Source: Terriglobia bacterium (lineage in GTDB: Bacteria; Acidobacteriota; Terriglobia; Bryobacterales; Bryobacteraceae). Taken from it: a stretch of 64,000 nt of DNA. The stretch spans positions 62,001 to 126,000 of the forward strand of contig JAIQFE010000009.1 in NCBI GenBank assembly GCA_020073445.1, in the 5' to 3' direction. Of this stretch, positions 22,405 to 24,955 are shown in pieces; position 1 is the first letter of the stretch; each line of letters opens with the position of its first letter. The translations under genes were made by a program, and so were the position numbers. The notes under the pieces are model-generated. The model worked only from the letters and a program-made list of their open reading frames with translations. It ran no database searches and was not told the origin of the DNA.

Positions 22405-22650
22405 TTAATCCAGAATCTCCACCCGGTAGTCTTCCATGACGGGGTTGGCGAGTACATCGCGCGCCACCTGGTCCATTTCCTTCTGGGCCTGTTCCTTGGC
22501 CGTCCCCGCCTGGAGTTCGATATCGAAATACTTGCCTTGCCGCACCGCCGTAATGGTTTTGTGCCCTAACCCATTGAGCGCGCTCTGGATCGTTTGCCCT
22601 TGCGGATCGAGAACGGTGGTTTTATAGGAGACGTACACGCGAGCTTTCAT
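22405..22650 (-). CDS. purS: Phosphoribosylformylglycinamidine synthase subunit PurS
   Basis: Small subunit that bridges PurQ and PurL in the three-part FGAM synthase of purine synthesis. It has 81 residues, the standard length, with the MKARVYVSYKTTVLDPQG start and a GHKTITAVRQGKYFDI core. Its partners purQ and purL are not in the window; instead it leads an operon with glmS and yjbQ. Both GlmS and FGAM synthase consume glutamine, which may be why they are co-expressed, but that is inference. Confidence 0.92.
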   Translation of the reverse strand: MKARVYVSYKTTVLDPQGQTIQSALNGLGHKTITAVRQGKYFDIELQAGTAKEQAQKEMDQVARDVLANPVMEDYRVEILD

Positions 22651-22702
22651 AACTTAAAACCATTGTAGTGGGTTATCATGCATCTTAAGGGAGAGACCTC
22701 TT

Positions 22703-23482
22703 ATCGTAAAAGGTTGGGTACTTGCGTCGTCTAGTACTGGGAACGCCACGCTGCTGGCGACCGAGAAGACCCGTCTCCTGATTGATGCCGGCCTGAGCCG
22801 CAAGGACACGTTCGAGCGTCTGGAGCGGATCGGCATTTCACCCCAGTCCCTCACGGCCATTCTGATCACGCACGAGCACAGCGACCATGTGGCCGGCCTC
22901 CCGGTGCTGGCCAAGCCTCGCGACGGCGTTCAGATTCCCGTGTACGTATCGAGGCTGACCGCCCCCTGCATTCCCTGGGGCGATTGTGTCCCCAATCTCC
23001 AGTTGTTCCAGGCCGGGTCGGCCTTTACGATCGGCGATATCGAGGTCACCAGTTTCACCATCCCGCACGATGCCGTGGATCCCGTGGGATTCTCGTTTCG
23101 GGCCGAGGGCATCAAGATTTCGATCGCCACCGATCTGGGCTATCTGCCGGATTCGGTCCGCGTCCAATTGCGCGGCTCGGATGCACTGCTGCTCGAATCC
23201 AATCACGATCTGAACATGCTGAAGGTGGGCCCTTATCCCTGGTCTGTGAAACAGCGGGTCATGGGGCGCATGGGTCATTTGTCGAACGACGCGGCGTGCA
23301 CCTTCGTGCGCGAAGATCTGGATCACAGCACTTCGACTCTGATCCTGGGGCATCTTAGCGAGCACAATAATCATCCTGAACTGGTCCGGCAGGCTGCCTT
23401 GGGCGCTCTCGACGGCCGTAGCTTGTTCACCAAGTTGCTTATCGCGGAACCAGGCAAGTTATTAGAGGCCTTTTGTTACTGA
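22703..23482 (+). CDS. WalJ/YycJ-type metallo-beta-lactamase-fold hydrolase, apparent non-canonical ATC start
   Basis: The protein (about 259 residues) has the MBL-fold motif ITHEHSDHV near residue 56 and family-specific blocks LLESNHD, GPYPW and GHLSND further on, as in the WalJ/YycJ group (proposed single-strand nucleases). The family normally opens with a beta strand, then a SGSSGNAT-like block. Here VKGWVLASSSTGNATLL begins at 22706, but no ATG, GTG or TTG lies in frame between the upstream stop (22655-22657) and a GTG at 22889, which would delete the metal-binding motif. An ATC at 22703 sits seven bases after AAGGGAGAG, so ATC is the best start. A frameshift is the alternative: an ATG at 22678 opens an 18-codon frame out of phase. 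Confidence 0.85.
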   Translation: MVKGWVLASSSTGNATLLATEKTRLLIDAGLSRKDTFERLERIGISPQSLTAILITHEHSDHVAGLPVLAKPRDGVQIPVYVSRLTAPCIPWGDCVPNLQLFQAGSAFTIGDIEVTSFTIPHDAVDPVGFSFRAEGIKISIATDLGYLPDSVRVQLRGSDALLLESNHDLNMLKVGPYPWSVKQRVMGRMGHLSNDAACTFVREDLDHSTSTLILGHLSEHNNHPELVRQAALGALDGRSLFTKLLIAEPGKLLEAFCY

Positions 23483-23632: not shown

Positions 23633-24955
23633 ATGATTAACCGATACACACGGCCCGAGATGGGCCGGATCTTCAGCGAACAGAACAAGTTCGATCAATG
23701 GCTGGCGGTTGAGATCGCGGCCGCCGAGGCTTTGGCCGAATCGGGGGAAGTCCCCCTGGAAGCCGCCCAAGCGTTGCGTGCCCATGCGGGATTCGATATC
23801 GAGCGCATTGATGCGATCGAGCGCGAAACCAGGCATGACGTGATCGCCTTTACCACCGCCGTAGCCGAGAAAATGGCCGCTGCGGGAGCCGCCGATGCTT
23901 CCCGCTGGCTGCATTATGGCCTCACCTCCAACGATGTCGTGGATACGGCTCAGGCGCTGATGCTGAAGCAGGCGTCCAAGATCCTGATCGAAGGCGCCCG
24001 CGAATTGGCGGAGATTCTAAAGCGCCGGGCCCACGAATTCAAGAACACGGTCCAGATCGGACGCACGCACGGCATCCATGCCGAGCCCATCACGTTTGGA
24101 CTGAAGATCGCTCTTTGGTATGACGAAGTGGTTCGCGGCACTAAACGTCTGGAAGCGGCTGCGGAAGACCTGCGCGTCGGGAAGATCTCGGGCGCGGTGG
24201 GGACTTTCGGGCACATCGGACCGGAGGCTGAAGAGCGGATCTGCGCGCGGCTGGGACTGAAGCCAGCGGCGATCTCCTCGCAGGTGATCGCGCGCGATCG
24301 CCACGCGGCTTGGGTGTCGTCTTTGGCCCTGATTACCGCAACCCTGGAGAAGATCGCTCTGGAAGTCCGGCATCTGCAGCGTACCGAGGTTCGGGAAGCC
24401 GAGGAGCCATTCGGTACCGGCCAGAAGGGGTCGTCGGCCATGCCCCACAAGCGCAATCCGGTGGTCTCGGAGCAGATCTGCGGGTTGGCGCGCGTGGTTC
24501 GTTCAAACGCCCAGGCGGCCTTCGAGAACATCGCGTTGTGGCATGAGCGGGACATCTCCCACTCCTCGGTGGAGCGCGTGATTCTTGCTGATTCCGCGAT
24601 ACTTACCGATTATCTGCTGGCCAAGACCCGGTGGCTGGTGGACGGCATGCAGGTGCATCCCGAACGTATGCTGGCGAATCTGGAATCGACGCAGGGGCTG
24701 ATCTTCTCGGGACAATTGCTTCTGGATCTGGCCGCGGCCGGGATGTTACGCGAACAGGCCTACAAACTAGTGCAAACACATGCCATGAAGTCCTGGGAAG
24801 CCGGAATAAGTTTCCGGTCGGCTGTGGAATCGGATAAGGAAATGCTTTCCTTTCTTACGCTTGAAAAGATTCGAGCGGCTTTTTCCGTGGACCGCCAGCT
24901 GAGCCACGTGGACCGTATCTTCCGCCAAGTTTTCCGCCAAGACACTCAAAATTAA
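23633..24955 (+). CDS. purB: Adenylosuccinate lyase PurB
   Basis: Fumarase-superfamily enzyme acting twice in purine synthesis (SAICAR to AICAR, and adenylosuccinate to AMP). It has 440 residues. The superfamily signature GSSAMPHKRNP near residue 265 carries the mobile catalytic Ser; RTHGIHAEP near 142 holds the other catalytic His. The ATG at 23633 is chosen because MINRYTRPEM is the conserved family start; the open frame extends 27 codons further back through palindromic repeat sequence that would add nothing recognisable. Confidence 0.95.
   Translation: MINRYTRPEMGRIFSEQNKFDQWLAVEIAAAEALAESGEVPLEAAQALRAHAGFDIERIDAIERETRHDVIAFTTAVAEKMAAAGAADASRWLHYGLTSNDVVDTAQALMLKQASKILIEGARELAEILKRRAHEFKNTVQIGRTHGIHAEPITFGLKIALWYDEVVRGTKRLEAAAEDLRVGKISGAVGTFGHIGPEAEERICARLGLKPAAISSQVIARDRHAAWVSSLALITATLEKIALEVRHLQRTEVREAEEPFGTGQKGSSAMPHKRNPVVSEQICGLARVVRSNAQAAFENIALWHERDISHSSVERVILADSAILTDYLLAKTRWLVDGMQVHPERMLANLESTQGLIFSGQLLLDLAAAGMLREQAYKLVQTHAMKSWEAGISFRSAVESDKEMLSFLTLEKIRAAFSVDRQLSHVDRIFRQVFRQDTQN

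Follow-up and report, generated by a model that had tools for sequence, protein, structure and literature searches.

A conserved near-cognate start codon, accompanied by a strong Shine-Dalgarno sequence, is proposed for walJ in a family of Acidobacteriota

The window, the whole stretch of 64,000 nucleotides analysed here from a Terriglobia bacterium, carries a gene for a WalJ/YycJ-type hydrolase of the metallo-beta-lactamase (MBL) fold, flanked by the divergent purS and by the downstream purB, which we take to encode adenylosuccinate lyase (Table 1). The walJ frame is open on the forward strand from 22658 to 23479 and ends with a TGA at 23480-23482. As the original prediction had it, and as re-reading of the sequence upheld, no ATG, GTG or TTG occurs in this frame from the upstream TAA through the conserved N-terminus until the GTG at 22889, inside the metal-binding motif. 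That GTG is not a plausible start because initiation there would delete HEHSDH from the protein. The start proposed instead was an ATC, very rare as a start codon, seven bases past a Shine-Dalgarno-like AAGGGAGAG, and this spacing is correct. Read from the ATC, WalJ has 259 residues and the N-terminus IVKGWVLASSSTGN, with formylmethionine in place of the isoleucine if AUC initiates.

Table 1. Features of the walJ locus, by position in the window
Feature	Position	Strand	Remarks
walJ/yycJ-type MBL-fold hydrolase gene	22703..23482	+	259 aa plus stop; ATC start proposed; PF12706, motifs
AUC start codon (proposed)	22703..22705	+	codon -8 relative to the SSSTGN motif; onset of conservation
Shine-Dalgarno-like AAGGGAGAG	22687..22695	+	7 nt spacing to ATC 22703
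In-frame TAA, upstream closure of walJ frame	22655..22657	+	
Out-of-frame ATG, judged unused	22678..22680	+	frame not kept in close relatives
GTG, earliest standard codon in walJ frame	22889..22891	+	within metal-binding motif HEHSDHV
purS, divergent neighbour, in-locus control	22405..22650	-	PF02700, E 6.7e-29; ATG start
purB, downstream neighbour, in-locus control	23633..24955	+	ATG 23633

The product matches PF12706 (E 7.4e-23; 81.6 bits against a cut-off of 27), which places it in the metallo-beta-lactamase fold. Its HxHxDH motif reads THEHSDH, and H57, H59, D61 and H62 are invariant among 15 aligned relatives, in which THEHxDH as a whole and other motifs are also invariant. Among the 8 of 33 records listed, genes annotated 'MBL fold metallo-hydrolase' from Firmicutes and other bacteria share 36-41% identity over 86-97% of the length, and the solved structures matched are beta-lactamases, RNase J and other members of the MBL superfamily. 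No WalJ-specific model is found among the NCBIfam matches for the product, and those listed all fall below their cut-offs. The walJ/YycJ name comes from the original prediction and from a GHLSN...NN motif presumed to mark this group. Near the walJ start, no Rfam element is detected up to an E of 1, and no promoter that would shorten the leader is conserved above chance. A conserved -10 promoter in the walJ leaders, suspected by eye, was dropped, with a mean score of 6.20 compared with 6.04 for shuffled sequence.

Relatives of walJ were aligned on the S[SG]SxGN motif, so that the ATC of the window is codon -8. The window's family (f1) consists of Acidobacteriota relatives, most of whose records are titled Bryobacterales or Bryobacteraceae. 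An initial 110 loci represent 94 distinct ones, and 21 of 23 further family loci, those not judged to be repeats, were added to give 114 distinct loci; L193, L323 and L325 repeat L108, L049 and L079, respectively, and do not enter the counts. Across these 114 loci, which share descent and are not independent counts, codon -8 is ATC in 82, ATT in 7, ATA in 5, ACG in 3 and CTG in 1, making 98 near-cognate codons; ATG (4), TTG (3) and GTG (2) provide 9 standard starts, and 7 loci have another codon. Six of these last 7 have a standard start at codons -12 to -6 while the seventh, L055, has an ATC at -7. Standard starts within this interval of codons are found in 0/98 near-cognate loci as opposed to 6/7 of the others (Fisher p 4e-9).

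The N-terminal alignment suggested as a check on the original prediction, which takes in relatives sharing as little as about 58% protein identity, thus has mostly ATC at the aligned codon and ATG in only 4/114. It also bears out that the ATC gives a normal start for the family, as the proteins of relatives begin at the same aligned codon, which in four of them (L025, L030, L088 and L330) is ATG. With near-cognate codons at the aligned position in 98 of the 114 loci, the reading of AUC as the start is strongly supported. Because standard starts occur in 15/114 family loci overall, the weak walJ start is not indispensable. The pattern nonetheless suggests that weak translation of walJ is being preserved by relatives across the family. 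In five genomes, for example G002, G016 and G027, walJ was not found and the search returned only weak MBL matches.

Protein-like conservation starts at the walJ ATC codon. In an alignment of 93 loci, the codons from -22 to -13 retain about 0.0-0.2 bits per base and include in-frame stops, codons -12 and -11 hold a conserved purine-rich Shine-Dalgarno block, and from codon -8 on the third codon position varies more freely than the conserved first and second, as in coding sequence. At codon -8, 89/93 codons are ATG or one base away from it; across codons -22 to -9 the corresponding figure is between 6 and 27. The excess of ATG neighbours among non-isoleucine replacements at -8, relative to other isoleucine columns, is not significant (13/20 vs 123/286, p 0.065).

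This onset bears on whether WalJ might begin upstream at a standard codon, leaving the isoleucine internal. Such a start would be possible in 36 of the near-cognate loci, where either an in-frame standard codon is present at a greater distance, as with the ATG at -13 in L026 and L064 (strain KBS 96) and the ATG at -15 in L013, or the frame cannot be closed. In the other 62 of the 98, which include the window, the stretch from the in-frame stop to codon -6 contains no standard start, and for these loci the sequence rules out an upstream extension. In addition, codons -22 to -13 are unconserved, with in-frame stops at most positions, and the Shine-Dalgarno block would have to fall inside the supposed coding part. 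An upstream start is accordingly very improbable.

It was also proposed that a single-base error could separate walJ from the ATG at 22678, which lies out of frame, and a sequencing or assembly error or an indel hiding an ATG in the window's genome deserves thought as many of the relatives are metagenome assemblies. Close relatives contradict it. L006, at 98% identity, keeps the ATC, and its upstream ATG runs into a TAG three codons later; L007 (93%) has ATA, and L008 (94%), which lacks that ATG, has ATC at the same position. In none of the three does an upstream ATG lead into walJ, being out of frame, stopped or absent. The trait also appears in genomes assembled into one (G289, G310), two (G311) or three contigs (G290), whose loci (L317-L320) have an ATC preceded by GGGAGG or AGGAGG. 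The frameshift or error explanation is refuted by L006 and L008, and we give it next to no chance.

The proposed start is coupled to the sequence in front of it. An SD-like match, defined as at least 4 bases to AAGGAGGT located 3-16 nt 5' of the start, precedes 92/98 near-cognate walJ starts but only 2/9 standard starts at codon -8 (p 2e-6); the 7 loci whose codon -8 is neither near-cognate nor standard were kept out of this contrast as their matches are counted from codon -8 and not from the real start. Such a match is found in 20/67 outgroup walJ genes with a standard start, before 5/27 purS and 24/68 purB genes, and in 18% of shuffled upstream sequences. Among 84 loci that have a match, 71 place the last G of the Shine-Dalgarno sequence 4-8 nt from codon -8. 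These figures indicate that a weak start and a strong Shine-Dalgarno sequence evolve together at walJ.

The same spacing argues against programmed frameshifting, or re-initiation from a small upstream ORF, as the route to the walJ frame. The short frame opened by the ATG at 22678 does overlap the ATC, and in L112 an in-frame TAG stands immediately 5' of the ATC, arrangements that either process could exploit. However, even L006 and L008 have not retained the upstream ORF, there is no shared upstream coding signal, and the Shine-Dalgarno sequence sits at a distance suited to codon -8. Either process appears highly unlikely.

The near-cognate start is particular to walJ within the locus. purS, found in 27 of 94 loci, has an ATG start in all 27, and of the purB genes, found in 68, all but one have a standard codon aligned with the start (67/68). 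The sole exception among the purB genes, L107, has an ATT at the aligned start following GGAGG. In a scan of 464 kb of the genome (the window and a further 400 kb, together about 7% of the total) with 309 coding-like ORFs, walJ ranks first for coding signal 5' of the first standard start with a score of 23.3, followed by an ORF at C21:60930 (22.4) and a third at 11.5. The second of these (G000:C21:60930-62315; L271:930-2315), which presumably encodes an amidohydrolase, shows strong coding signal, including a segment resembling a signal peptide, ahead of any standard start. It has a CTG at the likely start, as does the relative L275, with no obvious Shine-Dalgarno sequence, and is a second candidate for a non-canonical start.

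Beyond the family, near-cognate walJ starts appear to extend to the sister families f2 and f3, in which a standard start at -12 to -6 is absent from 17/20 walJ loci; in 16 of those 17 an SD-like match precedes the putative start. A CTG at -7 (12 loci) or an ACG at -9 (5 loci) would serve as the start, assignments that are less certain than that of ATC in f1. In other families of the class, ATG, GTG or TTG is at the walJ start in 8/8 assessed loci, ten f8 loci (L202-L211) being excluded as their sequence stops short of the gene start. Elsewhere in the phylum a standard start is found in 27/29 loci in one set, four of them class-level, and in 34/40 in another, in which L237 is mis-anchored. L134 and L138, from one separate genus on a branch of its own, have an ATC at -9 after a purine-rich Shine-Dalgarno sequence and no standard start, and are a possible independent case of a weak start. 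Less clear exceptions are L239, L247, L248, L252 and L253; the frames of L239 and L247 have a CTG at codon -7 with no standard start nearby and are possibly further near-cognate starts.

In a FastTree phylogeny of 151 proteins, whose outgroup part comprises 26 phylum-level and 8 class-level loci, the window's family forms one side of a well-supported branch. Changes between near-cognate and standard starts number at least 9 within the family, 11 within f1-f3 and 15 overall, counts that are blind to gain versus loss on a tree with many weakly supported branches. The recurrence of standard starts within the family is what would be expected if the weak start were nearly neutral, a strong Shine-Dalgarno sequence sufficing for initiation and the codon drifting among near-cognates, with no regulation by IF3 and no benefit from low expression. 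The association of the Shine-Dalgarno sequence with the weak start also fits such drift, as compensation predicts it. Yet ATC is a single base change from ATG, which is rare at this position, and nothing comparable is seen at the neighbouring purS and purB. Near-neutral drift under a strong Shine-Dalgarno sequence is the main rival to a maintained weak start; the rarity of ATG counts against it, and on balance we find it unlikely, if far from negligible.

The gene for IF3, infC, presents the opposite picture. It is present in the window's genome, and in the window's family an ATG lies 15-17 codons upstream of the IF3_N domain in 16/16 loci examined (L154-L173). In f2 and f3 a standard start is found within 22 codons in 0/14 loci (L144-L158, L170), and ATT, ATC or ATA is at the aligned place in 12 of the 14. 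These 16 and 14 loci are the 30 read out of 38 infC matches. In other families of the class, 28/30 loci (L286-L315) show no standard start within 12 codons upstream of the domain. The classical weak start of infC seems to have been lost in the window's family, while walJ carries one. A doubtful though conceivable extension is that walJ has become a chief IF3-sensing gene in this family, the weak start of infC having been given up, with the dose of a DNA-processing enzyme tied to initiation fidelity. If so, walJ output would go up under IF3 shortage or lax initiation by ribosomes, and initiation fidelity would be linked to DNA repair or chromosome maintenance.

A maintained weak start remains our preferred reading. 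It is quite probable that walJ is translated from the AUC at 22703 and that this is an old, lineage-wide weak start, balanced by its Shine-Dalgarno sequence, with low output and sensitivity to IF3, although initiation at the AUC and the part of IF3 are what we infer from sequence. The weak start would be ancient and retained in most of the family, with AUU, AUA, ACG and CUG as likely substitutes in related lineages. The strong Shine-Dalgarno sequence would offset the poor codon-anticodon match, allowing for a basal amount of the enzyme. IF3 is described to destabilise initiation complexes at codons besides ATG, GTG and TTG, as shown in E. coli and Streptomyces (PMC5472188), and a cited study puts CUG output at 0.86% of that of AUG (PMC11497404). 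As IF3 rejects complexes on near-cognate codons, WalJ synthesis should stay low and dependent on the Shine-Dalgarno sequence and, judging from the codon class, would rise when IF3 activity or initiation fidelity drops. The benefit may be to restrain a WalJ/YycJ-type enzyme, in keeping with the original suggestion that AUC might limit expression. A Bacillus relative, the protein of B. anthracis, is reported to be a DNA exonuclease, and WalJ/YycJ affects division and replication in B. subtilis (PMC4801191).

The locus offers a natural experiment on the trade-off between start codon and Shine-Dalgarno sequence and on whether IF3 controls more than infC, with natural replacements among AUC, AUU, AUA, ACG, CUG and standard codons and the matching gain or loss of the Shine-Dalgarno sequence. 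It also has a practical side, as gene finders restricted to ATG, GTG and TTG must misplace or truncate such starts.

Conserved non-canonical starts have been characterised in very few bacterial genes (PMC5472188), and our search of the open-licence literature found no paper on a non-canonical start for walJ. A close parallel is Streptomyces sigR, whose start is GTC in 32/34 species and GTT in 2, with a conserved ribosome-binding site and repression by IF3 (PMC5472188). Like walJ, sigR is a chromosomal gene other than infC with normal neighbours, a non-canonical start kept in a lineage and a strong, conserved Shine-Dalgarno sequence. It differs in that GUC departs from AUG at the first and third bases, whereas the walJ codon does so by one base, and in that sigR encodes a sigma factor for which IF3 control was shown experimentally. 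The walJ codon also varies among AUC, AUU, AUA, ACG and CUG and spans a family and its sister families. infC, with its AUU or AUC start and autoregulation by IF3 (PMC5472188, PMC1805508), shares with walJ a weak codon of this class and a good Shine-Dalgarno sequence; unlike infC, walJ does not encode an initiation factor and so would have no self-feedback through IF3. E. coli pcnB, with an AUU start (PMC4245954), is likewise a gene for a nucleic-acid enzyme with a rare start, although the enzyme and the lineage are different. In Firmicutes, WalJ/YycJ is an MBL-fold protein with the same conserved metal motif, and its gene is a member of the walRK operon or, in S. aureus, is transcribed alone with a 181-nt leader (PMC4801191); here walJ is divergent from purS, lies upstream of purB and has the proposed AUC start. 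As far as the literature searched goes, walJ is new to the conserved non-canonical starts, of a kind already known from infC, sigR and pcnB. It stands out for how deeply its start is conserved, for how freely the one-base neighbours of AUG replace one another, for the tight coupling to the Shine-Dalgarno sequence and for the opposite state of infC.
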